Positions 28,058 through 44,465 of a stretch of 64,000 nucleotides of DNA are shown here, piece by piece (the stretch's first letter is position 1; each line of letters starts with the position of its first letter). The notes beneath the pieces were generated by a model that saw only the letters and a program-made list of their open reading frames with translations, had not been told where the DNA came from and did no database searches. This stretch comes from Levilactobacillus huananensis (GTDB lineage Bacteria; Bacillota; Bacilli; Lactobacillales; Lactobacillaceae). Made by a program: the position numbers and the translations under genes. The DNA is taken from assembly GCF_003946145.1 (NCBI RefSeq), contig NZ_RHOC01000002.1, positions 124,001 to 188,000 on the forward strand, in the 5' to 3' direction.

Positions 28058-29725
28058 AATGTTTGGAACACAGTTAAAGTACGTGATCTGATTGATTCGT
28101 TGTACCACGGGTACCCGATTGGATACATCATTACGTGGGATAATCCGAAGGCTCGCTTGAAAGATGGGCGTATCGGTCAGGGCAAACGGATTATTATTGA
28201 CGGTCAGAAACGAATTACCGCTTTACGGGCGGCCTTAATGGGGGATTCGGTTGTCACTAAGAAATTCGAAAAGCGGCGAATTAGAATTGCGTTTAAGCTG
28301 GAGACGAGTGAATTTCAGACACTGACTAGTCCGATTGAAAAAGATAAGCGGTGGATTTCCGACATCTCAGTACTGTTTGGTGAAGGAAATTTTTTCGAAT
28401 TTGTCTCACAATTCGCAGAAGACAATGGATATGATGCAATGGAAATTTCACGCCCGATCCAGCATTTAAAAGATCTAGTCAATAATGATGTTGGTAACAT
28501 TATGTTGTCATCTGATTTGGATATCAGTGCGGTTACGGAAATTTTCAATCGCATTAATTCTAAAGGAACAGAGCTTAGTTCCGCCGACTTTATTATGTCA
28601 AAGTTAGCTGCCGACACTGAACATGGCGGTAATGATCTACGTAAAACAGTCGAATATTTTGTCACCCTGCTGGAGGATCCAATGATTCTACAGAACCTGA
28701 TGGTGAACGACATAGAATTCAGCACGTCAGACTATTATGCCAAGATTAAGTGGGCGACTAAGGAACGAACCAACCTCTATAATCCGCGATTTGGTGACAT
28801 TTTTCATGTTATCTTGGGATTTGAGTTTGGGCGAAGCCGTCACGCGGATCTAATTAGTTTGGTCTCTGGCCGTGACTTTAACAAGAAGACGTATACAGAA
28901 GAGGCCATGCAGACGGCGTATGCTAAATTGTCAGAAGGGGTTCTGGCCGTTGTTAATCAGTCCAACTTTGAACGTTACTTAATGATTCTGAAGAGTCTTG
29001 GCATGCTAACGCGGGATACGCTTGTATTGAATGGACTAGGTGTTTTGAATTTTGGCTACTCGCTATACCTCTTATTGAAACGACAGGCACAAGCGGCAAT
29101 AACCAATTCCCAAATTGAAATGATTGTTAAAAAATGGATTATTATGTCGGCTCTAACCCATCGCTATGCTGGGTCAAGTGAATCTCAGAGCTGGCAAGAT
29201 ATTACTCGATTCATTAAAGAAGATCCACTGGCTGTATTGAAAGATGTTTTACGTCAGAAACTTTCAGAGGATTTCTGGGCAGTAAAGCTGCCACAACAAT
29301 TAGTGACATCTTCCACACGGTCAAATTCTTGCCGTGTCTTTGAAATGGCTCAAGTTAAAGGTGGAGACATAGCGTGGTTGGAAAAAGACCATACCGTAGA
29401 AAGTGTTTTGAATCAGCAGGGGAACGTGCACCACATCTTTCCACGGGCCTATCTTAAGCGTGAAGGATTAACCCAGAAACAGTATAACCAGGTGGCAAAC
29501 TATACGCAGATCACACAGCCACGGAACCTACAAGTAAGTGACCAGATTCCGCGGGACTATTTAGCAAATCCCCATATTACGGAGTTTGTGACTTTAGATA
29601 ATTTTAGAAAAAATGCCATTCCGGAAGAAGTTCGCCAATTCGATGCTTCGAATTATGATGAATTTCTAAGGATGAGACGGCAGTTAATGGCACAGAAGAT
29701 TCGTCGCTATTTCGAAAGTTTATAA
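28058..29725 (+). pseudogene. 5'-truncated DUF262/DUF1524 (GmrSD/BrxU-like) restriction protein
   Basis: The frame is open from just after a TGA at 28055-28057. It starts abruptly inside the DUF262 domain (NVWNTVKVRDLIDSLYHGYP), at the position right after the QRxFVW-type motif of intact relatives. The first about 45 residues and the start codon are missing; the only start-like codon is TTG 28100, without a ribosome binding site. Downstream motifs are intact: IIDGQKRITAL, EIFNRINSKGTELSSADF, and a C-terminal DUF1524 HNH-type motif VHHIFPRAYL with NLQVSDQIP. GmrSD/BrxU enzymes cut DNA carrying modified cytosines and are known companions of BREX. Here the copy is probably inactive. Confidence 0.8.
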
Positions 29726-30132: not shown

Positions 30133-30726
30133 ATGAAACAATATAGCGCCGCAATGGTGGCACATTCTTTTTGGTTCAATGAATTTTCGCAATATTTAGA
30201 TCTACGCGAACAAGGGAATGCTGATGCAGATATTCGGTATTTAGCTGTAGAGGGAAACTATTTTCAGCAGCAGACAACGTCACGCTCACTAAGAATGGTT
30301 CAAACACTAAAGCGACGCGTGAATATTCTTGATGAAGATTACTTTGATCTGTTTCCGTCACTAGATCTGACCAATCAGAAACTGATGAATTTATCGGCTA
30401 TCCTACAACTGGATTCGTTATTTGATGATTTTTTGTACGAAGTCTACCGAAATGAATTAATTTTGGGGGATGCTAAGCTTTATAGTTATGAGATTGAAGC
30501 CTTTTTCAATCAGAAACAGGTTGAGAGTTCCAAGGTTGCCTCATGGACTGAGCAGACAATTAGGCGATTGGCCGGAACCTTCAAGACGTTCTTACGTGAG
30601 GCAGGCCTACTAGAAGAACAAGATGATTATGATCAAGTGAAGCGACCACTACTGGATACGCGACTAGAGATTCTATTACATACAAAAGGGCAGACCCGCC
30701 AGTTAGCGGCATTTTTGGGGAGATAG
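30133..30726 (+). CDS. brxA: BREX protein BrxA (DUF1819)
   Basis: A 197-residue protein with the DUF1819 features of BrxA: N-terminal YSAAMVAHSFWFNEF, central RYLAVEGNYFQQQTTSRS, and the winged-helix-like C-terminal half (TIRRLAGTFKTFLREAGLL). BrxA is a small DNA-binding protein and the first gene of type 1 BREX operons. GGGAGG lies upstream of the ATG. The stop is separated from brxB by 1 bp, indicating translational coupling. The gene is preceded by a 400 bp regulatory gap. Confidence 0.92.
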   Translation: MKQYSAAMVAHSFWFNEFSQYLDLREQGNADADIRYLAVEGNYFQQQTTSRSLRMVQTLKRRVNILDEDYFDLFPSLDLTNQKLMNLSAILQLDSLFDDFLYEVYRNELILGDAKLYSYEIEAFFNQKQVESSKVASWTEQTIRRLAGTFKTFLREAGLLEEQDDYDQVKRPLLDTRLEILLHTKGQTRQLAAFLGR

Positions 30727-30727
30727 C

Positions 30728-31306
30728 ATGACAAAAACAGCAGAAAAACTCAAACATTTACGAGAAAAGGTAGCTGATCCAGCCTTTCAACAGAGCCGAG
30801 GTCTATCAAATGAAGTGTCGTATTATATTTTAGCTTTTGACCCACAGGATCAACCGTTGGTTATTGAAGAGGTTAGTAACATGCGCCAACAACTGAACCG
30901 TGAAACGGTTGGCATGGATATTGTTGAGTTCAATCTCTACCAGATTATGTGGGAATTGCTAGATGGTATGGGAATTAAAGAGGATGTTCTAGAAATGGAA
31001 GCCAGTGATGGTATCGACTACCTGACGGAGCAGCTGAATAATGCCTTGGAGATGACGAGCTCTGAGAACCTACTGGTTCAGTACATGCAGCAGCATCTAC
31101 CTGAGGACCCAGTGATTGTCTTTGTTACAGGAATTGGGGATATCTTTCCGTTAATTCGAGCCCATAAAGTTTTAAATACCATGCATCAGGTGATAACTGG
31201 CATTCCCGTTGTCTTCTTTTATCCGGGAACCTATGACAGTCTAAGTCTCAGTATGTTTGGTGAATCCAAAGAGGATAACTACTACCGAGCATTTCAAATC
31301 AATTAG
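30728..31306 (+). CDS. brxB: BREX protein BrxB (DUF1788)
   Basis: A 192-residue protein matching BrxB by position, length and motifs (SNEVSYYILAFDPQDQPLV, VIVFVTGIGDIFPLIRAH, PVVFFYPGTYD). The last two are the usual conserved strand-loop elements of DUF1788. Its molecular role is still unclear in the literature that I know. It is translationally coupled to brxA and followed 12 bp later by brxC. Confidence 0.92.
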   Translation: MTKTAEKLKHLREKVADPAFQQSRGLSNEVSYYILAFDPQDQPLVIEEVSNMRQQLNRETVGMDIVEFNLYQIMWELLDGMGIKEDVLEMEASDGIDYLTEQLNNALEMTSSENLLVQYMQQHLPEDPVIVFVTGIGDIFPLIRAHKVLNTMHQVITGIPVVFFYPGTYDSLSLSMFGESKEDNYYRAFQIN

Positions 31307-31318
31307 GGGAGAGCCGTA

Positions 31319-34300
31319 ATGAAGGTTAAAGATATTTTTGAAAAATCGATTGATCGTAATATCAAGGGTGTTATTACCATTGGTGATGAACAAGATGCTA
31401 ATGTAAAACAGGAACTTGAAGAATATGTAGTTACCAAAGAGCTGGACGGTCATTTTAAGGATTTCTTTTCAGCATATGCTGAAGGCATTCAGCATGATAC
31501 GACGAATATGGGTGTCTGGATTTCTGGGTTCTTTGGGTCTGGGAAATCGCATTTTCTGAAGATTTTAGCCTATCTTTTGGAGAATCGAGAGGTAGCCGGA
31601 AAATCGGCATTAGATTACTTTATTGATGATGCCAAGGTTCATGATCAAGGGACACTGGCAAACATGAAGTTAGCCGCATCTATTCCAAATGAGGTAATGT
31701 TATTTAACATTGATTCCAAAGCCAAGAACGGTAATAAATCTCAAAAAGATGCTATTTTGAACGTCTTTCTACAGGTATTTAACGAACAATTAGGACTGTT
31801 CGGGGCTGACTTTTGGATTGCTGATCTCGAACGAGACTTGATTGCTCAAGGAAAGTACACAGAATTCCAAGAAAAATTCAAGGAATTGGATCGGCAAAAT
31901 CGGGACTGGCTTGATGCGCGGAATGCATATGCTTTTCTGAAGGGGACAATTCGAGACACGCTAGTTGCAATTGGGTTTATGTCGGAAGCTGATGCCAATG
32001 GATTCATTGATCAACTTAAGAAAGAGTATCCCATCAGTGTTGAGAGTTTTGCCAAATTAGTCAATCAGTATATTGAGAGTCAGAACGAAAATTACCACAT
32101 GGCATTCTTGGTGGACGAGGTTGGTCAATATATCGGATCTAGTCAACAGCGGATGCTTAATCTCCAAAGCATCGTTGAGGATCTGGGAACCTATACACAT
32201 GGTAAAGCGTGGGTGATTGTTACCAGTCAACAAGCCATTGATAAGGTGACCAAGAATATTAATGGGCAAGACTTTTCCAAGATTCAAGGACGATTCAGTA
32301 CCCGGATTGCCATGTCCTCTGCCAACGTAGATGAAGTTATTCAGAAACGATTACTGGCGAAGACGGCGTCTAGCGAGAAGTTATTGGAAGCCACCTTTGA
32401 TGAAAACCAACATGTCATTAATAATCTGATTAGCTTTGATGGTAAGGAAGAACGGAAACGGTACGACGATGCTAAGATGTTTGCCGATCTTTATCCGTTC
32501 GTTCCCTATCAAGTCGTGCTCTTACAGGATACATTGACGGCCATTCGTGAGAATGGGTCTGATGGGAAGCATTTGGCTAACGGGGAACGTTCAATGTTGG
32601 CAGTCTTCCAAGAATCTGCCCGGCGTTTGGAGAACGAGGATACACGGGCATTAGTGCCGTTCAGTATCTTCTTCCAGGGACTCAGTCACTTCCTGGATCA
32701 CACGCATATGATTGTGATTCAACGGGCACAGAATAATGAATTGATTAATCCTAGCGGTGAGGACAATCCCTTTGCTGTTCAAGTTCTAGAGACGTTATTC
32801 ATGATCAAATACGTTCAGGACTTCGATGGAACTTTGAATAATTTAGTGACGCTTATGATTGATTCAATTGATACTGATCGAATTGAGTTGGAAGCTAAGG
32901 TTAAGCAAGCCTTACAGGTCCTGCAAGAGCAGAACATCGTAGAGAAGACCAGCAAAGGGTATGAGTTCTTAACCGATGCTGAACAGGACATTAGCAAGCA
33001 AATTCAGCGACAAGGAGTGGATTCTGGAGAGGTTTCTCAAGCAATTGGGGATTACCTCTTCAGCACAGCTGCTATTTCGCGGCGGTACACATACCCTAAG
33101 TTAAATCAGCAGTATACGTTTGTCTTTAATCAATGGGTTGATAATCGACCAGTGGGTAAAACCAATCAAGATATCAATTTGAAGATTGTTACGGCAGCTA
33201 ATGACGATAACCGAGACGACAGTGAGTTGCGGCGACAGTCTAATTCACCAGAACAGCCCCAAATCATTATTGATTTACCGGGTGAATCACAATACGTCGA
33301 TGACCAACAGCAGATTTTGCGGATACAGAAATTTATCCTGAATCCGCAAGAACAATCCCAAGATGCTCGCTCACAGCGAATTGTGAACGTTAAGAAGACG
33401 GAACTAGGTGTATTGAAGGAACGGGTGGCTAAGGAATTACTAGATGTTCTCCAACAGGCCAATATTTACGTTCAAGGTGATCGGCTCGATGCTGGCAAGA
33501 AGGATTTCTTTACCAGTTTAGGGCAAGCGGAAGAACAATTAATTGATGAAATCTATCGGAATTTAAGTTATATCGATGTCGTTAAGCAAGAGAATGACAT
33601 TGTGGCGCTGTTCAAGGACAGCAGTGAATTAGTCAAAACCACTGAAAATGAACGTGCCCTTCAGGCGGTTTTAGAACGCATTAGTCGCGATTACACTGGT
33701 CACAGCAAGATTTCGTTTAAGTCGGTGCTGGAACGTTTCAATAAGATTCCATATGGTTATCGTGAAATCGATACCAGGTGGCTCGTCGCAAAACTTTTCG
33801 CTGATGCTAAGCTAAAAGTCTACGTCAACGGTGAGGCCTTGAGTTTGCAGGCGAGAGTGCCAGCCAATGAAATGGCGAAGTACTTCTTGAAACGACAATA
33901 TTTGGATGCGGTTCAAATGGAACCACGCCATGCCGTGAGTGAGAGCAAGAAGAAAGACCTGAGAGACATTGCACTAGAACTGTTTAAGAAGCAGATCTTT
34001 AGTGATAATGAAGATGACACGTTGATGCGTGAACTTCAAGATAGTTTGAACAAAGCGCGCAAGACTTTAAACATTTACCTGCAAAAGCCGAGTTACTATC
34101 CCGGACAAGATGTTTTGGAGACTGGGCGAGAGCTAATGGATCTTTTATTGGCACAAACTGATACGGACCGATTCTATGGTTTAGTGAGCCAAAAGCATGA
34201 TGATTTACTAGACTGGCATGATGATATGGATGAGGGTGGCATCAACGAATTCTATCAGAGTCAGACGCAACAAGAGATCTGGGAATCAGGGTACACGCAG

Positions 34301-34942
34301 CAAGTTGTTTATGATCGCTCACAAAAATTTGTCACCGGTACAGCAGTTAAGGGCTTAATCGTTAAAATTGATGAGTTGATGAAGAAACGTCCACAAGGAA
34401 ACATTAAGCCACTTAAAGACTTGGTTATCGCATTTCGTGAGGCTTTCAGTGATGAATTTGATGCTGGCCTGAGTCAGGTACAACAAGACATTCAAACTGA
34501 ACAGGTTGCGACAGAAAAATATTGTGCGGATGAGCACCTCACAGAGGAGTTCGGTGACCAGATCCGACGTGAATTTGCAAGTTTACTGAATGATGCGCAG
34601 GACGCGACAACCTTAAATGGATTGTTTATTATTCCACAACAGGCGGGTTCTGTCCGAATGCGCTTAGTTCATAGCATGGACCGATTATTGGAAGAACGCA
34701 ATCGCAATAAAAAGGTGATCCATATAACACCACCAACCATTGGAAAAGAAAATGATGATGGCGGTTCCGATCAAGTTAAACCTGTCATCATGCAACGAAA
34801 GACAATCAGTGCTAGGGCGTTAGGAATTAACCAGTCGTGGGATTTGAATAATTCGACGGACATTGATGTTCAGATTGAGAGTCTGAGAGCTGCTCTTAAA
34901 CAGCAACTAGAAGAAAACGGCAAAATTAATTTTGAACTGTAA
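31319..34942 (+). CDS. brxC: BREX P-loop ATPase BrxC
   Basis: A 1207-residue AAA-like ATPase, the typical BrxC length. The N-terminal KVKDIFEKSIDRNIKGVI is the usual BrxC opening. Walker A is SGFFGSGKSHFLKIL (about residues 66-80). A Walker B-like strand is MAFLVDEVGQYIGSS (about 262-276). A long C-terminal helical region is followed by an acidic linker and the C-terminal tail. BrxC is essential for BREX defence and is thought to power the PglX/PglZ complex. GGGAGAG precedes the ATG. It sits in one operon with brxA, brxB and pglX. Confidence 0.93.
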   Translation: MKVKDIFEKSIDRNIKGVITIGDEQDANVKQELEEYVVTKELDGHFKDFFSAYAEGIQHDTTNMGVWISGFFGSGKSHFLKILAYLLENREVAGKSALDYFIDDAKVHDQGTLANMKLAASIPNEVMLFNIDSKAKNGNKSQKDAILNVFLQVFNEQLGLFGADFWIADLERDLIAQGKYTEFQEKFKELDRQNRDWLDARNAYAFLKGTIRDTLVAIGFMSEADANGFIDQLKKEYPISVESFAKLVNQYIESQNENYHMAFLVDEVGQYIGSSQQRMLNLQSIVEDLGTYTHGKAWVIVTSQQAIDKVTKNINGQDFSKIQGRFSTRIAMSSANVDEVIQKRLLAKTASSEKLLEATFDENQHVINNLISFDGKEERKRYDDAKMFADLYPFVPYQVVLLQDTLTAIRENGSDGKHLANGERSMLAVFQESARRLENEDTRALVPFSIFFQGLSHFLDHTHMIVIQRAQNNELINPSGEDNPFAVQVLETLFMIKYVQDFDGTLNNLVTLMIDSIDTDRIELEAKVKQALQVLQEQNIVEKTSKGYEFLTDAEQDISKQIQRQGVDSGEVSQAIGDYLFSTAAISRRYTYPKLNQQYTFVFNQWVDNRPVGKTNQDINLKIVTAANDDNRDDSELRRQSNSPEQPQIIIDLPGESQYVDDQQQILRIQKFILNPQEQSQDARSQRIVNVKKTELGVLKERVAKELLDVLQQANIYVQGDRLDAGKKDFFTSLGQAEEQLIDEIYRNLSYIDVVKQENDIVALFKDSSELVKTTENERALQAVLERISRDYTGHSKISFKSVLERFNKIPYGYREIDTRWLVAKLFADAKLKVYVNGEALSLQARVPANEMAKYFLKRQYLDAVQMEPRHAVSESKKKDLRDIALELFKKQIFSDNEDDTLMRELQDSLNKARKTLNIYLQKPSYYPGQDVLETGRELMDLLLAQTDTDRFYGLVSQKHDDLLDWHDDMDEGGINEFYQSQTQQEIWESGYTQQVVYDRSQKFVTGTAVKGLIVKIDELMKKRPQGNIKPLKDLVIAFREAFSDEFDAGLSQVQQDIQTEQVATEKYCADEHLTEEFGDQIRREFASLLNDAQDATTLNGLFIIPQQAGSVRMRLVHSMDRLLEERNRNKKVIHITPPTIGKENDDGGSDQVKPVIMQRKTISARALGINQSWDLNNSTDIDVQIESLRAALKQQLEENGKINFEL

Positions 34943-34974: not shown

Positions 34975-37900
34975 ATGGATAAAACAGCAATTAAAAAATT
35001 TGCAGTTAACGCGCGCCGATCGCTCATTGAGGACATTAAGCTTAAAGCGGCTTCGTTGGGGATCTCTGAAGCAGGTGTGGCAGATAAGTTACCGATTTCA
35101 ACGTCTGAAGTTGAATACTATAAGGATGAACTAGGCGGGATTACAGGTCAGAACATCGTTAAGCGGCAACGGTTCGTCGATGAGTTAGAACGACGAGCAA
35201 CGAAAAGTGACTTTAAAACAGCCTTTCATGATTTAGTAGAAGAAGTTGCCTATACGTGGTTTAACCGAATTATTGCGATTCGTTTTATGGAAGTGAATGA
35301 CTATCTGCCGAGTCGGACACGAGTCTTATCCAGTACTGAGAATCGAAATGAACCAGATATCATGGTCCATGCATTAGATGTCGAAAGTGACTTGGGTGGG
35401 TTTTCCTCCACAGAACGTGATCTGATCAATAAAGCTTTAGATACTGAGCAACCGACAGACATGGATGCCGAGTATCATATGTTATTTATTAAACAGGCCA
35501 ATGCTTTGAACAAGAACCTGCCATATTTATTCGAAAATACTAATGATTATGCAGAATTATTGTTCACTCCCAACTATCACGACGGGGTAATCCAGCATTT
35601 GATTACTGATGTTAGCGAGGATGATTTTAACGTGGCTGTTGGTGGTCAGGTGGAGATTATTGGGTGGCTGTATCAGTACTATAATACGGAACCTCATGAT
35701 CAAGTCGTCAATATCACCGGTGGCCCGGTTAAAAAAGCTGACATTCCCGCAGCAACTCAGCTTTTTACAACGGACTGGGTTGTTAAATATATGGTTGATA
35801 ACTCCTTGGGAAAGTATTGGCTGGAACGCCATCCTGAGAGTAGCCTCCAAGATAAGCTGGAGCTTTTACTTCCTGGTGATATCGAAATTATTAGCGATGG
35901 CGAATCTGTTGAAGATTTAAAAGTCATTGATAATGCCATGGGATCAGGTCATATTTTGGTGTATGCCTTTGATGTCTTAATGCAGATCTATCAAGAACAA
36001 GGTTATTCTGTCAGAGATGCCGCTATCCTGATTATCAAGAATAATTTATTCGGGCTGGAAATTGACCAGCGGGCGTATCAACTGTCCTACTTTGCGTTGA
36101 TGATGAAGACTCGTCAATTTAATCGTCGCGCCCTATGGAATGGTGATTTTGAACCGAACGTTTTTGTCTTTGAAGATACTGACGATATTTCAGAAGAATT
36201 TATGATGCGAATACCCGAGAAATTTCAAGCGGACTTGAAGGATATCATAGATAAATTCAGTAATGCCCGTGAATTGGGGTCAATCATTGACTTTGGCAAT
36301 AAGGACTATGATTTTCAAGATTTACGAAAGGCCATTGCATCGGTAGATGTTGAGGGATTGGATGTTTTTGGTTTACGAGAAACTAAAGAGAAGCTATTAC
36401 GAGTTCTGTCAATTGCTGAAGTTTTGACGAATCACTATGAAGTGGTTGTGACGAATCCACCATACATGAACAAGATGGATGCGGCGCTGAAAAAGTATGT
36501 TAAGAAGCACTATGCAGACTACTCTGGAGACTTATTCTCAGTGTTCATTTTTAATAACAGTAATCTAGCTAAATCGGGTGGTTATTCCGCCTTCATGACG
36601 CCATTTGTATGGATGTTCATCAAAACCTATGAGAAATTACGAAAGTATTTGATTGAGACGAAAAAAATTGATAGCCTCATTCAGATGGAGTATTCTGCAT
36701 TTGAGGAGGCAACGGTACCAATTAATACGTTTGTGATGAAGAATGTGACAAATGAATCCATTGGTACTTACGTAAAACTTTCTGCTTTCAAAGGTGGCAT
36801 GGATGTCCAGAAGGATAAGGTTCTTGAGGCAATCGCCAACCCTGATATTAACTACCTTTATCGAACTAACCAAGCGAACTTTGCGAAGATTCCCGGAATG
36901 CCGATTGCTTATTGGGCTAGTCGAAAATTATTCTCGTTGTTTTCAGAAGATATTAGACTTTCTAAATATTTCCGAGGAAAAGAAGGTCTTGGAACCGGAA
37001 ACAACGCGAAATTTTTGAGATTCTGGTTTGAACTTGCTGAAATACATGGAGGTTGGCATCCATATCAAAAGGGCGGATCGTATAGAAAATGGTATGGAAA
37101 TAATGAATATTTCGTAAATTGGCAAAATAATGGTGCATCGATGAAAGCAATGCCTAAATCTAATATTAGAAATTTGGATTTCCAAAATAGAGCTGGCATA
37201 ACATGGTCCGCCATTTCATCTGGTAAGCCCTCTTTTAGATACACTATTCAAAAATACTTCTTTGATTCTAAGGGACCAATGATGTTTTCTACGATCAATA
37301 GTCCTTATCAAATAGCCTTAGCATTGCTAAACTCTAAAGTTTCAGAATTCATTCTTTCTTTTCTTTCACCAACATTGGACTATCGACTTGGTCAGATACA
37401 AATGATTCCGTGGTTACCTGTAGTGAATAATGCATCAATAGTCATTGATTTGGTTGACAATGCTATTTATTTATCAAAATTCGATTGGGACTCTTTCGAA
37501 ACCTCCTGGGACTTCACCACCCATCCACTTTTAATTCACATCGCTGACGATAAGCAAAATAAAATAGATGGTAAGGTTAAAAACGCATTTAGCTTATGGC
37601 AAGGTGAGACCCGAGAGCGGTTTGCTCAGCTCAAGTCGAATGAAGAAGAGTTAAATCGAATCTTTATTGATCTGTATGGACTGGACGATGAACTAACGGC
37701 AGAAGTAGCTGACAAGGATGTTTCTGTACGGTTGGCTGATGAAGAACGCGACATTAAGTCGTTTCTGTCGTACTTTGTAGGTGTTGTATTTGGTCGTTAT
37801 TCATTAGATATTGAAGGATTGGCTTTTGCTGGTGGCGAATGGGATCAAAGCAAATATCAGTCATTTGTGCCAAACGAAGATAACCTATTGATGCTAAACG

Positions 37901-38472
37901 ATGCTGACTACTTTGGTGATTCACGCGATATTATTTATCGTTTGAAGACATTCTTAGCGGCTACTTTTGGGTCAAAAACAGTTGACGAGAACGTTGCCTA
38001 TATCGCCTCTGTGATTGGTAAAAAGGCTGATTCAGATGAAACAGCCATTCGTCGCTATTTTGTGGAAGACTTCTTTAAGGATCATAAGAAGATCTATCAA
38101 AAGCGGCCAATATACTGGGAATTTAGTAGTGGCAAGAACAATGGTTTTAAGGCATTGATGTATCTCCATCGCTACGATTCTGATGAACTGGCAATGATTC
38201 GGACGAACTATCTACATCCACTGCAGGGAAAGTATGAATTACGAATTGAGCAGCTGACTCAGCTAGCAAGTAGTGAGACGGTAGCAAGTCAGAAGAAACG
38301 CTATGAAAAAGAACTCAAGCATTTAAATCAGCAACTGACTGAAATTATTAAGTATGATCCATTGATTCAGCATATTGCTAACCAGAAAATCAAACTTGAT
38401 TTAGATGACGGGGTTGTCGTCAATTACGATAAACTTCAAGATGGCAGCGCCATTTTATCTAAGCTGAAATAA
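34975..38472 (+). CDS. pglX: BREX adenine-specific DNA methyltransferase PglX (expressed copy)
   Basis: A 1165-residue m6A methyltransferase that marks host DNA at an asymmetric site; in type 1 BREX it also guides exclusion of unmarked phage. The SAM-binding motif I is DNAMGSGHIL (about residues 319-328). The catalytic motif IV is TNPPYM (about 492-497). The specificity region spans about residues 648-833, and there is a helical C-terminal domain (about 860-1165). ATG 34975 follows GAAGGAAGAG and is preferred to an upstream GTG. Three segments are repeated inversely in the silent copy at 39673-41836: residues about 196-238 (IR1), 623-647 (IR2) and 834-860 (IR3). Between them the two copies differ strongly, so this gene is the expressed half of a recombination cassette. 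Confidence 0.94.
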   Translation: MDKTAIKKFAVNARRSLIEDIKLKAASLGISEAGVADKLPISTSEVEYYKDELGGITGQNIVKRQRFVDELERRATKSDFKTAFHDLVEEVAYTWFNRIIAIRFMEVNDYLPSRTRVLSSTENRNEPDIMVHALDVESDLGGFSSTERDLINKALDTEQPTDMDAEYHMLFIKQANALNKNLPYLFENTNDYAELLFTPNYHDGVIQHLITDVSEDDFNVAVGGQVEIIGWLYQYYNTEPHDQVVNITGGPVKKADIPAATQLFTTDWVVKYMVDNSLGKYWLERHPESSLQDKLELLLPGDIEIISDGESVEDLKVIDNAMGSGHILVYAFDVLMQIYQEQGYSVRDAAILIIKNNLFGLEIDQRAYQLSYFALMMKTRQFNRRALWNGDFEPNVFVFEDTDDISEEFMMRIPEKFQADLKDIIDKFSNARELGSIIDFGNKDYDFQDLRKAIASVDVEGLDVFGLRETKEKLLRVLSIAEVLTNHYEVVVTNPPYMNKMDAALKKYVKKHYADYSGDLFSVFIFNNSNLAKSGGYSAFMTPFVWMFIKTYEKLRKYLIETKKIDSLIQMEYSAFEEATVPINTFVMKNVTNESIGTYVKLSAFKGGMDVQKDKVLEAIANPDINYLYRTNQANFAKIPGMPIAYWASRKLFSLFSEDIRLSKYFRGKEGLGTGNNAKFLRFWFELAEIHGGWHPYQKGGSYRKWYGNNEYFVNWQNNGASMKAMPKSNIRNLDFQNRAGITWSAISSGKPSFRYTIQKYFFDSKGPMMFSTINSPYQIALALLNSKVSEFILSFLSPTLDYRLGQIQMIPWLPVVNNASIVIDLVDNAIYLSKFDWDSFETSWDFTTHPLLIHIADDKQNKIDGKVKNAFSLWQGETRERFAQLKSNEEELNRIFIDLYGLDDELTAEVADKDVSVRLADEERDIKSFLSYFVGVVFGRYSLDIEGLAFAGGEWDQSKYQSFVPNEDNLLMLNDADYFGDSRDIIYRLKTFLAATFGSKTVDENVAYIASVIGKKADSDETAIRRYFVEDFFKDHKKIYQKRPIYWEFSSGKNNGFKALMYLHRYDSDELAMIRTNYLHPLQGKYELRIEQLTQLASSETVASQKKRYEKELKHLNQQLTEIIKYDPLIQHIANQKIKLDLDDGVVVNYDKLQDGSAILSKLK
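35562..35690 (+). repeat. IR1 left arm of the pglX cassette
   Basis: 129 bp, identical as read to the inverted copy at 41708-41836. Identity begins abruptly at GTTCACTCCC and ends after TAATACGGA. Confidence 0.95.
36842..36915 (+). repeat. IR2 left arm of the pglX cassette
   Basis: 74 bp with two mismatches to the inverted copy at 40411-40484. It encodes NYLYRTNQANFAKIPGMPIA in both copies and lies between the catalytic core and the specificity region. Confidence 0.95.
37475..37553 (+). repeat. IR3 left arm of the pglX cassette
   Basis: 79 bp with five mismatches to the inverted copy at 39704-39782. It encodes FDWDSFETSWDFTTHPLLIH in both copies and marks the start of the constant C-terminal part. 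Confidence 0.95.
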
Positions 38473-38530
38473 GCTAAAGGGGACTTCTCAAATCAATGAG
38501 AGGTCCCCTTTGTGCCAAGTTATGTGCCAA

Positions 38531-39619
38531 CTATTTTGAAATATTATTCAAGATTGAGATGATCTTTTCTTGGTCCTGAGATTCAAGTTCTTTGATGATG
38601 TGTAAGTACGTTGATTGCGTAGTTGTGATGTTACTGTGACCTAATCTACGAGAGACTGATAGGACACTAACTCCTTTGTAGAGCAGGATTGATGCGTGTG
38701 TATGTCGTAGGCCATGAAAGGTGATTCGGGGAATCCCAAGTTGTTCTAACTTTTCTGTCAGCATCTTATTGATTTCAGCACTAACCAAAATGTGACCAGC
38801 CATGTTCATGAAGATGGGGCGATTTGAATTCAGAAAGTGAAGATTTAAAAAGTTTTGAAGTTTTTGAACGGTCTGCTGGTCGATGGCAATGTCCCGGACC
38901 GAGGATCGAGTTTTGGTCTTCATAAACCCAGTCTTATACTTGTAATCCCAGGCTTTGTTCACAGTGATTAGATTATCTTTTAGGTCGATGTCACTTGGTG
39001 TGAGCCCTACGATTTCACCATAACGCATGCCAGTGACAGCCGCCAGGTAAACAATCATTTCGCCAATTTGTGATGTGTCGAGATTGAGCAGTAGCGTCTT
39101 CCAATCATCATAGTTCAAGGCTTTTGCAATCTTAAGTCGTTCTTTACCAGTTATCACAGCTTTTCTAGTTGGGTCGGTAGTAATGATCTTTTCATCTAAC
39201 GCTTCCAAAATGCAGGCACGAAGCTGTTTGTGGAAACAAGAGACGGTTCTTTTAGCGTGGTCTTCGGCGAACTTATTTAACTGTTCTTGGTAGATCAGCT
39301 TGGTTAAATCTTTTAACTTGAGATCGCCAAATAGCTCGTTGGCATGCTTAGCAGTATTTTGATATTTATTATAGGTAATTGGTGTTACGGCATTTTGTTT
39401 GTAAACTCGAATCCAGCGCTGGTAGTAGGAGACTAAAGATTCACTACCTGACTGGACAGTTGTGAGGTTAGGGTGCTCTGTCTGAACTTTACTAGCAGCC
39501 AGAATGGCTTCAGATTTGAGCAGAAAGCCTGATTTACGAAGCTTCTTGTACTTTCCATTGTGATCCTTATAGGAGATTTCATACTGCCAAGAATTACCAC
39601 GTTTACGATAACTTACCAT
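38531..39619 (-). CDS. tyrosine site-specific recombinase of the pglX cassette
   Basis: A 362-residue phage-integrase-type recombinase. The N-terminal AP2-like arm domain is KRGNSWQYEISYKDHNGKYK, followed by a SAM-like core-binding domain (about 60-160). The catalytic domain has Arg in TGMRYGEIVGL, HGLRHTHAS (HxxR), LGHSNITTT and the nucleophile Tyr in STYLHI. It lies between the two pglX copies, inside all three inverted repeat pairs, so it is the obvious candidate to invert the segment. It has no tRNA or phage genes beside it. The ribosome binding site GAGGGAAA precedes the ATG at 39619. Confidence 0.9.
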   Translation of the reverse strand: MVSYRKRGNSWQYEISYKDHNGKYKKLRKSGFLLKSEAILAASKVQTEHPNLTTVQSGSESLVSYYQRWIRVYKQNAVTPITYNKYQNTAKHANELFGDLKLKDLTKLIYQEQLNKFAEDHAKRTVSCFHKQLRACILEALDEKIITTDPTRKAVITGKERLKIAKALNYDDWKTLLLNLDTSQIGEMIVYLAAVTGMRYGEIVGLTPSDIDLKDNLITVNKAWDYKYKTGFMKTKTRSSVRDIAIDQQTVQKLQNFLNLHFLNSNRPIFMNMAGHILVSAEINKMLTEKLEQLGIPRITFHGLRHTHASILLYKGVSVLSVSRRLGHSNITTTQSTYLHIIKELESQDQEKIISILNNISK

Positions 39620-39703
39620 GTTTTTCCCTCCATTGCGTGTTTATTGGCACAATTTTGTCACAGATTGACTAGTTAGCCAACGGGAGAACGACAGTGTGAT
39701 AGA

Positions 39704-39782
39704 TTATCGTCAGCGATGTGAATTAGGAGTGGATGGGTGGTGAAGTCCCAGGAGGTTTCGAAGGAATCCCAATCAAATTTTG
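39704..39782 (-). repeat. IR3 right arm of the pglX cassette
   Basis: Inverted partner of 37475-37553; five mismatches over 79 bp. Confidence 0.95.
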
Positions 39783-40410
39783 CTAAACTATTTGATGCAC
39801 TACTAAGCATAGTCACAGTTTCTGTATTCTTAACTTTCAAGGGAATATTCTTAATATTTACAACTTGAAAATTTAATGTAGGATTTTGTACTTGCAAAAT
39901 ATAAAATGCAACTTTTGTGTTCAATAGTGCTTCTAAATAGAAAAGAACATCATTACTGTCTGAAAATAAGGATGAACCTGCTACATCAAAGATCGATCCC
40001 ATTGTTGAAAATCGCACACCAAAATTACTCGAACTAATAAACGACCAGGTTAGTCCTTGCTTGAAGTAGAAATTTTCATTGGTGATTTTCCATCCTAAAT
40101 TGTCCCCTAATTGTGGATATTTTCTCTTTGTGTCATCTTTGATTTCTTTGCCATCATTGGCCCAATTGACGACATACTCATTATTACCATACCATTTACG
40201 ATAGTTTCCCCCTTTATCATAAGGTACCCACTTTACATAATCGAAAGTCTTATCAGGGTTAGTTAGATGTGGATCGAATGAAGAAATTCTGATTTCGTAC
40301 CATAGCCTTAAGAAACGACTATTATTTCCTGTACGCATACCTAGTCCCACGAAAGATATGTTCGAGACTGAGGGGTTGTTTTTAAATTGGTTAGTTAAAG
40401 ATTTAGGAAT

Positions 40411-40484
40411 CCAATAAGCAATCGGCATCCCGGGAATCTTCGCAAAGTTCGCTTGGTTAGTTCGATAAAGGTAGTTAACATCAG
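40411..40484 (-). repeat. IR2 right arm of the pglX cassette
   Basis: Inverted partner of 36842-36915; two mismatches over 74 bp. Confidence 0.95.
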
Positions 40485-41707
40485 TGTTTTTAACTGCGGC
40501 TAGATAGGCCCGTTCCTTTTTTTGCTGTGAATCGAAACTAACTAATCGCTCATAAGTACCAATATAATTAGCAATAGTCTGGTGCTTGAACACGAAGGTT
40601 GTAGATTGAACAACCTCTCCACCAATTTCTTCAAATGCTCGTGTACCCAAATGTGCCATGTTAATCAGCGTATCTGCCTTCAGAACTGAACGTAATTTTT
40701 TAAAACTCGAAAGAAACATCCAAGCGTGTTGTGTAATCATGGCATAATAGCCATCCCTATCAGTTAAACTACGTAGTCGTTCTATGAACACCGCAAAGAG
40801 GTCAGACTTACTATTAGGAAAATGTTTTTTCACATATTTTCCAAGGACTGAATCCATCTTACCGGAACCCATGTACGGTGGATTCATCGCACCAATAGTA
40901 AACTGTCGTGACAGTATTTCCCCAACGGTACTAATTTCACGCAACTTATCCTGATTCTCTACTAACACAATAGAATTCAATGACAGTTGTCCTGCACTTA
41001 ATTTCTGATTACTAATCCGCGTAATCATTGACCAATCCACGGGCTTAGCCAACTGGACTAACGAACCATACTCGTTTCCATAACGAAATTTGTCCAACAA
41101 ATAATCCAGCTGCTTTTCTTCATCCTCAGACTGAAGAAATTCTTGAAAATCTGCACTTGATAATTCGCCTGATTCTGGAATATCAAATACATTTGGGCGA
41201 ATGTTCAAAGTTAAAAAGCGACGATTAGCGCCACGAGCCTTCATCATTAACGAGAAGTAAGCCAATTGGAAGGCACGAGTATCAATATCCAATCCATAGA
41301 TGTTTTTTTGAATAATTAGCTTTGCTGCATCTCTACGTGAGTAACCTTCACGTTCATAGATTTGCATAAAGACTTCGAAAGCATAGATCAGGATGTGACC
41401 GGAACCCATTGCAGCATCGATAAGGGTAACCTTCTCAATGTTTTCAGCTGACAGTTTAGTTGATTCAGACTGAATCGAAACTTGTTCCGTTTGATTAGCG
41501 GCTGGCATGAAATAGCGCCAACCAAAATCATCTGCAATTTCTTTGTCGGAGCGGTAATCTCCTCTAGCTTTCAGGACATCAATCCAGTAACGTCCCAGTG
41601 AATTATCTACCATGTACTTTACAATCCAGTCAGGTGTGAAAAGCTGGGTCACAGCAGGGATATCGGATTCAAGATATTTTTTCTTCTTGAATGCCTGATC
41701 TTTCGGC

Positions 41708-41836
41708 TCCGTATTATAGTACTGATACAGCCACCCAATAATCTCCACCTGACCACCAACAGCCACGTTAAAATCATCCTCGCTAACATCAGTAATCAAA
41801 TGCTGGATTACCCCGTCGTGATAGTTGGGAGTGAAC
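41708..41836 (-). repeat. IR1 right arm of the pglX cassette
   Basis: Inverted partner of 35562-35690; identical over 129 bp as read. Confidence 0.95.
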
Positions 41837-41924
41837 GATTAATTTCATAAATTCTGCTGCAGGTCGTATGGGTTTACGTTATGATTAGGCTATATCATAA
41901 AACGACTAAAAGGGAGTAAGCATC

Positions 41925-44465
41925 GTGGCAGATGTCGACACTAATCAAATTATTAAAACCTTGAAAAAACGATTCACCGATCAACAGCAATTTGTTTTCT
42001 GGTACGATGACAACGGTGATTTTACGACGAGTATTGCTGAGATTCAGGAAGCCTTAACGGGGATTGCAGATGTTATCGTTATGGCCCCAGGTCATCAGCT
42101 GGAAACAAAGCAACAGTTATTGGCCTTACCATATCAGACGAAGGCATTGGTCTATTCGCCGGTCCCCGAACCAGCACTTGAGGAAGACCATTTACGAAAC
42201 ATCGTGCTGTATTCTGGCATTTTTACAGCTGATTCCAAAGAAATCTTACGTAAGGAGCTAGGATTACCAGAGAGCCTAAAGCCTTTCATTAAGCAATATG
42301 CTAGTTTCTTCGCTAATGCACGCCGGCGGGCCGTCTTTTCTCGGTATGACGTTGACAGTTATAAAGCTAAACCAGAGTTAGCGATCATGGCTGCTTTGAC
42401 ACCTTTGAATCAACCGATTGTGGACTTCTTTGATCTTCTACAGGAACTACTGGTTAAAGGCATTAAAGACAATCCTGTTTTAAAAGAGTTTGCGCGGTAT
42501 GGGGTCTTGCAATCGTTCTGGGAAGAGATTGCGGTTCGTTTCGGATATACTGAGGAAGCGCCAGAACTTGAGGGACTAGTTGCAGATCTCTATGTAACCA
42601 TGGCTTATCAGCAAATGGAAAAGTCAGTACCGGTTAGTTTGAAGAAGTATGACCTTAGTGAATACGCGGCGAATGTCCAGACCTTCGTTCAGCAGTTCGG
42701 CCATCGTAGCGAGACGAAAGAGTCTAGTGAAGATACTTTCGACAGCATTGCTGAATTAGTCTGGCAACTGGTAGATAGCGATCGTCTCTTTAGAAACACT
42801 AAGATCGATGATTTGGCCAAGTCTGACATATTTCCACGTTTCGACCAACTGATCTTGTTGTGGATTCAAGAGCGGTTACAGCTTGAGGATTTGGATAGCC
42901 GGTTGAATGATCAAACGATAGCGGAGCTCACCCGCCAGCGATTGAATACGCACTATGGCAGTCAACCACGTTTTTCTCGACTTTACCGCATGATGCGTAG
43001 GGCCTGGAACATTGTCCGGAAAGGTCATCAGCAGCCTGCTGAGGGGCAGCAGGCGATGATAGACCGGTATGTGGCACAAGACTATCGTATGGATACCGAT
43101 TATCGGAAGTTTACCTATGACTACCAACTTACCGGGCAACCGGAGGCCTTTTCCAAAACCAAGACGTTAATCGAGTCGATTTATATCAATAATTACCTAG
43201 ATAAGTCTATTTATGCGTGGAATGAAGCATTCGATGTGACTGAGGTTAAACCGCAACACTTACAACGTAATTTTTACCGTTTCTACATTGCACCAAAACG
43301 GAATCGAATTGTCGTAATTATTTCCGATGCTTTTCGATTTGAGGCAGCTAAAGAATTAGAGAAACGTTTGAGTCGAGAGGATCAGGTGACGTCGCTGTCG
43401 ATGGATTATTTGGTGACAGGGTTACCTTCTGTGACTTATATGGGGATGCCCTTTATGCTTCCTAATCGCAAATTAGACCTGCAGGCACGGCAGAAAGAAT
43501 TAATCGTTGATGGCCAGAAGACCGGTAATCAACAACAACGCCAGGCCATTTTACGGCATCATAATCCTAAGAGTGCCGCGTACAGTTTGAAGGAACTGAA
43601 GGGGGACATGTCCAAGGAGTTGCGGGAGAAGTTTGCCGGACAAGAGGTTGTGTATATTTACCACAACAAGGTCGATGCGGTTGGTGATAATCAGAAGACG
43701 GAAGATGATGTGTTCAAGGCAACCGACGAGGCCATAACTGAGATCCACCAGTTGATTACGCGGCTACGAACGTTGGGAATTGCGCATATCTACGTGACGG
43801 CTGACCATGGGTATATCTATCGACATGATCAATTGGAGGCCACCGATAAGATCGAAATTGAGACGGATGAAAATGATGTGAAGTCCCAACGTTACTTGGT
43901 GACGGCACGAGATTTTGACTTACCAGGGATCGGTCGACAAAAGCTAAGTGATATTTTGGCAGATAGATCTGATCAGCGGTATGTTTACTATCCAAAAACA
44001 GCGAATGTTTTCAAGGCAGTCGGGTCATTTAACTATGTTCACGGGGGCTCCTCACTGCAAGAAATGATAGTACCGCTGCTGGAAGTGAAGACGACTTCTA
44101 ACCGTTCAGCTGCACAAGACGTGACGTTAGAACTCTTCAGTATGAACCGGCAGATTACGGCATTGACGGTGCCCCTAGTTTTACGCCAGTCACAACCGAT
44201 TAGTGCGACAGTTATCCCGGTTGAATTTACTCTGTATTTTGTCAATGAGCAGGGCCAACAGATCTCCGGCCAACAGACGATCAACGCCAATAATCGTTCG
44301 GAGTCAGTAAAGGATCGCATGCAAAGTATTCAGTTGATTTTAGCCGATAAGCCTTATGACAAAACCCAGATGTATTCTTTGGTAATTGAAAATCAACGTA
44401 GTCACGAGAAAACGAAAATTCCATTTACAATGGATATCGCCGATCTTAATGACTTTAATTTTTAA
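41925..44465 (+). CDS. pglZ: BREX alkaline-phosphatase-like protein PglZ
   Basis: An 846-residue protein of the type 1 BREX PglZ type. The alkaline phosphatase superfamily core is visible in IVVIISDAFRFEAAKELE (metal and nucleophile region, about residue 465) and YVTADHGYIYRHD (about residue 625). The C-terminal region is beta-rich (LELFSMNRQITALTVPLVL). PglZ is essential for BREX and binds metal; it may be a nuclease or phosphodiesterase. The start is GTG 41925 with AAAGGGAG 8 bp upstream. It is separated from brxABC-pglX by 3.4 kb of oppositely transcribed cassette, so it probably needs its own promoter in 41837-41924, although no consensus promoter is obvious there. Confidence 0.93.
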   Translation: MADVDTNQIIKTLKKRFTDQQQFVFWYDDNGDFTTSIAEIQEALTGIADVIVMAPGHQLETKQQLLALPYQTKALVYSPVPEPALEEDHLRNIVLYSGIFTADSKEILRKELGLPESLKPFIKQYASFFANARRRAVFSRYDVDSYKAKPELAIMAALTPLNQPIVDFFDLLQELLVKGIKDNPVLKEFARYGVLQSFWEEIAVRFGYTEEAPELEGLVADLYVTMAYQQMEKSVPVSLKKYDLSEYAANVQTFVQQFGHRSETKESSEDTFDSIAELVWQLVDSDRLFRNTKIDDLAKSDIFPRFDQLILLWIQERLQLEDLDSRLNDQTIAELTRQRLNTHYGSQPRFSRLYRMMRRAWNIVRKGHQQPAEGQQAMIDRYVAQDYRMDTDYRKFTYDYQLTGQPEAFSKTKTLIESIYINNYLDKSIYAWNEAFDVTEVKPQHLQRNFYRFYIAPKRNRIVVIISDAFRFEAAKELEKRLSREDQVTSLSMDYLVTGLPSVTYMGMPFMLPNRKLDLQARQKELIVDGQKTGNQQQRQAILRHHNPKSAAYSLKELKGDMSKELREKFAGQEVVYIYHNKVDAVGDNQKTEDDVFKATDEAITEIHQLITRLRTLGIAHIYVTADHGYIYRHDQLEATDKIEIETDENDVKSQRYLVTARDFDLPGIGRQKLSDILADRSDQRYVYYPKTANVFKAVGSFNYVHGGSSLQEMIVPLLEVKTTSNRSAAQDVTLELFSMNRQITALTVPLVLRQSQPISATVIPVEFTLYFVNEQGQQISGQQTINANNRSESVKDRMQSIQLILADKPYDKTQMYSLVIENQRSHEKTKIPFTMDIADLNDFNF

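Follow-up and report, generated by a model that had tools for sequence, protein, structure and literature searches.

We analyzed a 64,000-nucleotide stretch of Levilactobacillus huananensis DNA (hereafter the window; positions 124,001 to 188,000 of contig NZ_RHOC01000002.1, from the draft assembly GCF_003946145.1 of 35 contigs), which carries a bacteriophage exclusion (BREX) locus with two copies of the methyltransferase gene pglX (brxX). The genes lie in the order brxA (30133..30726, + strand; PF08849, 2.9e-44), brxB (30728..31306, +; PF08747, 2.7e-36), brxC (31319..34942, +; PADLOC BrxC, E=0), pglX (34975..38472, +), a tyrosine recombinase gene (38531..39619, −), an inverted second copy, pglX' (39673..41836, −), and pglZ (41925..44465, +; PF08665, 2.1e-42); the order brxA, brxB, brxC, pglX, pglZ is that of BREX type 1. 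The expressed pglX is predicted to encode 1165 aa, the ATG at 34975 being a likelier start than the GTG given in the list of open reading frames (ORFs), and comprises an N-terminal domain (N-domain), a methyltransferase domain (MTD, or core) of type B as defined below, a target recognition domain (TRD-1) and a C-terminal domain (C-domain). Its product matches the PADLOC PglX model with E=0 across residues 1-1163, contains Eco57I/N6_Mtase domains (Pfam) and matches BrxX/PglX chains of the PDB, the best at 8.1e-179. The recombinase, situated between the two copies as the initial annotation had claimed, is an open frame of 362 aa of the integrase type with an arm-binding domain (PF00589, PF14657 and PF14659; Phage_integrase, 3.5e-24), related to PDB chains named Integrase or Int protein; it contains R, HxxR and Y stretches, which we take to be the motifs of tyrosine recombinases. 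The silent pglX' consists of a type-A core and a second TRD (TRD-2). Its ORF (39673-41799) matches PADLOC PglX at 1.9e-246 and has as its sole start an internal TTG (41799), and stops directly upstream of the first repeat described below block the frame.

Three pairs of inverted repeats (IR1 to IR3) link the expressed and the start-less copy, in agreement with the initial annotation. IR1 lies at the joint of N-domain and MTD (35562..35690, +; silent arm 41708..41836, −) and its arms are identical over 129/129 bases; IR2 occupies the hinge between MTD and TRD (36842..36915, +; silent arm 40411..40484, −), with 72/74 identical bases (two mismatches); and IR3 is found just past the border of TRD and C-domain (37475..37553, +; silent arm 39704..39782, −), with 74/79 (five mismatches). 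At a 60-base minimum, the inverted repeats listed in the 64 kb were these three and a weak pair, I4 (76%). We rejected I4 (37060-37133 and 40151-40224) as a fourth pair, as it lies in the recognition segment and appears to reflect ordinary protein-level similarity of TRDs. The proteins of the two copies are 40.2% identical in the core and 38.4% in the recognition region, and a chance origin of IR1 was dismissed because its 129 identical bases are flanked by approximately 40% identical protein. As previously annotated, IR1 and IR2 enclose S-adenosylmethionine (SAM) motif I and NPPY, which occur there in both copies. In contrast to pglX, pglX' has neither the first ~200 residues nor anything past IR3 (the C-terminal ~300 residues), ending 10 residues after this repeat. 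In the cryo-electron microscopy structure reported for Escherichia coli HS BrxX, residues 1-210 form the N-domain, 211-650 the MTD, 651-837 the TRD and 838-1205 the C-domain, with a hinge at 638-675 (PMC11842806). Aligned by eye to this 1205-aa chain, with F592, I595 and V599 in agreement with that paper, IR1 falls at ~184-224, IR2 at ~637-660 and IR3 at ~851-873; the exchanged pieces would therefore amount to nearly the entire MTD and nearly the entire TRD.

Since pglX' lacks the C-terminal part, any single inversion should truncate PglX, and a full-length chimera should need two. We enumerated in silico all inversion products at the three repeat pairs, obtaining eight configurations, all of them in frame, of which four were full length and four truncated. 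The full-length products (1165, 1188, 1189 and 1212 aa) represent the four combinations of core and TRD, and in the truncated ones (869, 892, 893 and 916 aa) the 10-residue tail of pglX' takes the place of the C-domain. A truncated form resulted from every single inversion, and in the truncated states the recombinase gene stands 53 bases behind the truncated pglX, on the same strand. The 2 x 2 chimeric enzymes foreseen in the initial annotation can thus be built in silico, but by two inversions, because a single one only truncates.

Alternative configurations occur between related species and plasmids, as judged from assemblies, and changes of slot among these relatives agree with the earlier proposal that methyltransferase and recognition segments are exchangeable modules (G and L numbers are our handles for genomes and loci). 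The silent TRD of L. wangkuiensis corresponds to the expressed TRD of L. mulengensis (94.5% DNA identity), with breakpoints in IR2 and IR3; in brxC, the N-domain, the expressed core, the C-domain, the recombinase, the silent core and pglZ the two loci are colinear at 93-94%. Likewise, only the core changed between L. yonginensis and G226, the silent core of the former being the expressed core of the latter (94.2%), with colinear flanks and breakpoints in IR1 and IR2, while between G071 and G252 the core had moved to the other slot together with part of the TRD (94.7%). Between the plasmid-borne locus of L. plantarum K25 and that of L. brevis TMW 1.2111, both cores had exchanged places (98% and 91%), with the direction of C-domain and recombinase unchanged (TMW 1.2108, identical to TMW 1.2111 at the locus, was left out). 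On a tree of 64 cores from 32 loci in which both cores are in place, made by a quick method and with some long branches, the slot label required 20 changes, against a mean of 21.7 for shuffled labels (132/500 shuffles were as low), and the starred branches forced at least 10 slot changes; we count this scatter, like that of shuffled labels, as support for exchange.

Two assemblies show the direction expected after an odd number of inversions. The N-domain was present in 31 of the 32 core-tree loci (the locus of S. shenzhenensis is cut); N-domain and C-domain shared a strand in 30 of these and lay on opposite strands in one, G089. Compared with L. plantarum SRCM103426, G089 has the block of C-domain and recombinase inverted (91%) and is otherwise colinear, although the TRDs do not match; the same inverted block was found in G047, outside the 32 loci, by comparison with G008 at 74-75%. 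By this arrangement, G089 and G047 represent the predicted truncated, odd-inversion state.

Other layouts were also observed. In four loci (L127, L131, L133 and L173, from G062, G122, G140 and G234), the C-domain of PglX is a separate ORF beside pglZ, outside the invertible block, which suggests a design where inversion never truncates; L127 and L133 hold one extra TRD. In L134, L135 and L139 (G198, G156 and G179), the silent cassette is a TRD only, with no core match, and G198 and G179 contain a second N-domain after the first pglX, as though two pglX genes stood in tandem.

BREX type 1 is characterized by m6A at the fifth base of a non-palindromic motif of six bases. What a core swap might change is suggested by E. 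coli BrxX, for which the TRD, the most variable part of the protein, is reported to read bases 1-4 of the motif and an MTD loop (residues 587-601) to read base 6; the loop of the E. fergusonii enzyme (GCTAAT) is described as markedly shorter and that of the S. typhimurium enzyme (GATCAG) as E. coli-like (PMC11842806). In the window, this sixth-base loop is MEYSAFEEATVPIN in the expressed, type-B core (36685..36726, +) and HLGTRAFEEIGGEVVQ in the silent, type-A core (40606..40653, −). The cores of Lactobacillaceae fall into three deep types, A, B and D, and the loop follows the core type in 64/64 cores. It reads HLG(T/S)(R/H)AF..IGGEVVQ, E. coli-like, in 24/24 type-A cores; EYSAFEE-ATVPI(N/D) or ETHA(Y/F)FDEA(Y/F)VTI(N/D), three residues shorter, in 29/29 type-B cores; and MEN(N/G)V-MGIAFGT in 11/11 type-D cores. 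The type-B pattern recurs, as EYSGFD-GATVPICTF, in the enzymes of E. fergusonii and Acinetobacter NEB394 (GTAGAT), both with T as sixth base (T6), and the type-A pattern in the loop of E. coli HS BrxX, LGARAFGQISGEVVQ, with G as sixth base (G6). From this likeness to T6 and G6 enzymes, type-B cores are predicted to methylate NNNNmAT and type-A cores NNNNmAG. In this locus, the expressed type-B core would then read T6 and the stored type-A core G6, with up to four predicted motifs when NNNNmAT and NNNNmAG are combined with the two TRDs. The core behaves as an exchangeable module in relatives, as first proposed, but this supposed catalytic core probably acts as a further module of specificity, whose swap would alter recognition of the sixth base rather than catalysis.

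Relatives of the expressed TRD of the window (66-72% identical) have a B core as their neighbour in L. mulengensis and G214, and an A core in L. wangkuiensis; on these placements, TRDs assort independently of cores. Published methylomes of L. paracasei list GCAAAG for strain IMAU70038 and GCAAAT for PC804, with base 6 as the sole difference (PMC10164179, Table 1). The same paper names IMAU70038, and not PC804, as having a partial BREX, so the link of these motifs to pglX is a candidate one.

Swapping of cores is not a peculiarity of this genome, as the initial annotation had implied, since unlike core types are paired in 39/41 Lactobacillaceae two-core loci. All 32 core-tree loci pair unlike types, compared with a mean of 20.3 when the 64 cores were paired at random (0/20000 pairings reached 32), a test that is too sharp because the loci include near-copies (K25, SRCM103426, TMW 1.2111, G089, G200 and G058, and the pair G272/G311), and the counts are therefore not independent events. 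Nine further two-core loci, typed by loop and nearest core only and with the two cores on separate contigs in G217, G267 and G338, included seven unlike pairs and two of type B with type B. Type B was the expressed core in 17 and the silent core in 12 of its 29 tree loci. A locus with two like cores would have no gain in base 6. Outside these counts were genomes where one core (G047, G075, G156, G179, G193, G198, G207 and G254) or none (G205) was found, and duplicate copies of one genome were counted once (e.g., L006 and L144).

In Levilactobacillus, third-position identity at IR1 was 93.5% within a locus and 68.6% between species, and the closest relative of an IR1 arm was the other arm of its own locus in 11/11 loci (one tie), which we read as concerted evolution; the own copy was closest for the TRD in 2/10 and for the core in 0/11. 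Conservation of synonymous sites along pglX in 11 Levilactobacillus loci was maximal at IR2 (windowed codon identity of 0.85 vs an average of 0.49), followed by the gene start (0.83), the 3' end of IR1 (0.81), IR3 (0.76) and the 5' end of IR1 (0.75). The draft genome G205 breaks at IR1 and IR2, with one 3.7 kb contig spanning IR2 to its silent arm, which fits identical repeats or mixed orientations, proving neither. Ratios of nonsynonymous to synonymous substitution (dN/dS) against L. parabrevis were 0.056 for the silent and 0.048 for the expressed core, indicating that both are constrained.

We consider it probable that the locus is a DNA-inversion cassette that provides the BREX methyltransferase with a combinatorial recognition sequence. 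Recombination between the two arms of one pair would invert all the DNA between them. After an even number of inversions, a full-length PglX would carry the MTD, the TRD or both from the silent copy; after an odd number, the C-domain would pass to the silent side, PglX would be truncated 10 residues after IR3 (869-916 aa) and the recombinase gene would be turned, following the truncated pglX on the same strand. A TRD swap is predicted to change bases 1-4 of the methylated motif, and an MTD swap base 6, T with type B and G with type A. The tyrosine recombinase would make at least some of the inversions, and the truncated state may favour flipping back, as it would place the recombinase gene in the operon.

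Several observations weigh against this cassette model. Inversion in this strain is inferred from one assembled sequence, and slot changes at the species level could stem from transfer plus homologous recombination or conversion; moreover, the partner TRDs of L. wangkuiensis and L. mulengensis do not match, and the partner cores of L. yonginensis and G226 match only in part (72%), so that neither is a clean reciprocal swap. The own arm was closest in only 7/11 loci at IR2 (two ties) and 4/9 at IR3, a repeat that is weak or undetected in several relatives. Codon tables showed conserved stretches in each repeat, and no defensible short site common to IR1, IR2 and IR3. As for base 6, the rule was built on four characterised enzymes (two G6 and two T6), type D has no characterised member among the enzymes compared, and loop swaps in E. 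coli BrxX are reported to cost defence (PMC11842806). Finally, two loci pair B with B: L130, from G115, which is decaying, its recombinase gene being split over two frames and its silent copy interrupted by stops, and L164, from G377, which pairs two B subtypes (EYSAFEE and ETHAYFDE loops) as partial cores.

A rival explanation, which we judge possible but the weaker, is that the same exchanges arise between the repeats by gene conversion or by RecA-dependent homologous recombination, with the integrase gene as a passenger. IR1 is long and perfect, the repeats differ in length and sequence and share no common recombinase site that we could find, and the slot changes between L. wangkuiensis and L. 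mulengensis and between L. yonginensis and G226 were not reciprocal for the partner allele; in the pneumococcal hsdS locus, PsrA is reported to make only one of three kinds of inversion, two of the three repeat pairs inverting without it (PMC4948785). Conversely, a recombinase match accompanies 32/32 core-tree loci, and conversion alone would not yield the inverted block of C-domain and recombinase seen in two loci. The conservation of synonymous sites at IR2, both IR1 ends and IR3 (0.75-0.85 vs 0.49) suggests recognition at the DNA level, although the gene start is equally high (0.83) and this is hence not specific proof. It is rather unlikely that specificity is altered by the TRD swap only, with the MTD as neutral baggage of recombination. 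The reading of four of six bases by the most variable part of BrxX (PMC11842806), the TRD-only stores of L134, L135 and L139 and the two B with B loci favour that idea, but the base-6 loop sorts by core type in all 64 cores, and unlike types are paired in 39/41 loci; for the first 32, about 20 unlike pairs would be expected at random.

Rather than a store of modules, pglX' might be an expressed partner protein with a regulatory function, as suggested for the second methyltransferase gene of L. paracasei Zhang (PMC10164179), and the annotated pglX' of plasmid K25 does start upstream of IR1; in the window, however, stops just before IR1 close the frame and leave only a TTG inside the repeat, and the slot label is distributed over the core tree much as if at random, making this improbable. 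Least credible of all, to the point of being nearly negligible, is a decaying duplication left after integration of a mobile element. An integrase-type gene does lie between the copies, and G115 resembles such decay, but selection on the silent copy (dN/dS of ~0.05 in its core) already contradicts it, as do an anatomy conserved in 32 loci and the homogenised repeats.

BREX type 1 is characterized by brxL (PMC12707154), and the BrxL model PF13337 matched nothing in 35 genomes of the genus, this one included, 14 of which contain pglX-like matches, although it recovered the BrxL of an L. plantarum plasmid at 2.4e-144. With this L. plantarum BrxL as query, tblastn likewise gave no match in the window, in 17 further locus files of Levilactobacillus (10 genomes, seven of them in duplicate, with 2.3-7.3 kb behind pglZ covered), in G071 or in C. 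furfuricola, and located BrxL behind pglZ in six loci of other genera or plasmids (SRCM103426, G089, G200, G272, G405 and G354). On these searches, the locus is classed as BREX-1-like without detectable brxL, and not as a full member of BREX type 1. In E. coli HS, loss of brxL is reported to end protection and hardly touch methylation (PMC6326788), and methylation persists without brxL in Acinetobacter (PMC9122589); therefore, methylation may occur at this locus without phage exclusion. A review also cites a Salmonella case in which brxL was dispensable (PMC12707154), so this locus might still exclude phages. Given that BrxL was not detected, we expect a changing pattern of N6-methyladenine (m6A) as the most likely output, phage exclusion being uncertain. 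More tentatively, Levilactobacillus BREX could have lost its killing component, BrxL, and now serve as an epigenetic switch that only methylates, with four motifs, the TRD setting bases 1-4 and the core base 6 (T or G). Selection would then maintain base-6 domains of two different types in almost all loci, type D being a third, unread type, and the one-inversion state would be a built-in off state that drives its own reversal by bringing the recombinase gene into the operon.

Among the remaining features, a hairpin with a 15-pair stem (one G-T), paired by eye, lies between the stops of pglX and the recombinase gene (38476..38511) and is a possible two-way terminator of these convergent genes; it was absent from the output of a terminator scan. 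A promoter scan of 38300-42000 gave 7 sites against 11.7 expected from shuffles, which says little, and no promoter-like site on the minus strand in 39620-42000, upstream of the recombinase. Just upstream of brxA, a GmrSD_N/DUF262 gene (28100-29725, +) has a 90% relative in the same place in L. humaensis, and no such gene was seen within ~4 kb upstream of brxA in L011, L012 and L033.

If the cassette operates as proposed, the puzzle of a swapped core becomes a testable rule, by which the final base of a BREX motif can be predicted from the type of base-6 loop in the methyltransferase domain. One gene could mark as many as four DNA words, as both modules probably set recognition. The cassette would also provide naturally occurring domain swaps in an enzyme for which laboratory grafting of the loop has failed; its repeats suggest points at which BrxX may be cut and rejoined. 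It raises the question of whether brxL-less BREX loci are epigenetic switches.

The locus has the features of an invertible specificity cassette of the hsdS/pglX type, namely an expressed gene, an inverted copy without a proper start and inverted repeats. Phase-variable BREX pglX was reportedly described in Lacticaseibacillus rhamnosus/paracasei by Goldfarb et al. in 2015, and Hui (2019) is also said to deal with pglX inversion; our locus would share with them the phase variation of a BREX pglX. Invertible pglX loci are already known, and the three-repeat, two-module cassette is a new variant. In the accessible text of the open-licence literature on such loci, we found neither three repeat pairs at domain joints nor separate exchange of MTD and TRD, a truncated state or a sixth-base reading of the MTD swap. 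A pglX locus of L. rhamnosus is said to be analogous to that of strain GG (PMC7513527). For resequenced GG, third-position variants are tabulated in codons 24-25 of a partial pglX and 219-220 of the full pglX, besides a third variant at codon 28 that has no partner and missense changes at codons 459 and 636 in evolved clones (PMC6256098). Taking the table as plus-strand letters, the paired variants are reciprocal (C,G to T,A vs T,A to C,G), and the GG variants lie by position near the equivalents of IR1 and IR2; listed by their authors as single nucleotide polymorphisms or mutations, they look, judged by position, like exchange between repeat arms.

Homologous proteins, including E. coli HS BrxX (GGTAAG), S. 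typhimurium PglX (GATCAG), E. fergusonii BrxX (GCTAAT) and Acinetobacter NEB394 PglX (GTAGAT), provide the comparison for recognition; the last two come from stretches with one annotated pglX and no cassette. A close parallel in architecture is Spn556II hsdS of Streptococcus pneumoniae, which shares the expressed gene with inverted partners, the tyrosine recombinase, the three inverted-repeat pairs and combinatorial recognition (PMC4948785). Spn556II exchanges TRDs of a separate S subunit, whereas here the methyltransferase domain and the TRD would be exchanged within a single BREX protein and, unlike in Spn556II, single inversions would truncate the enzyme.

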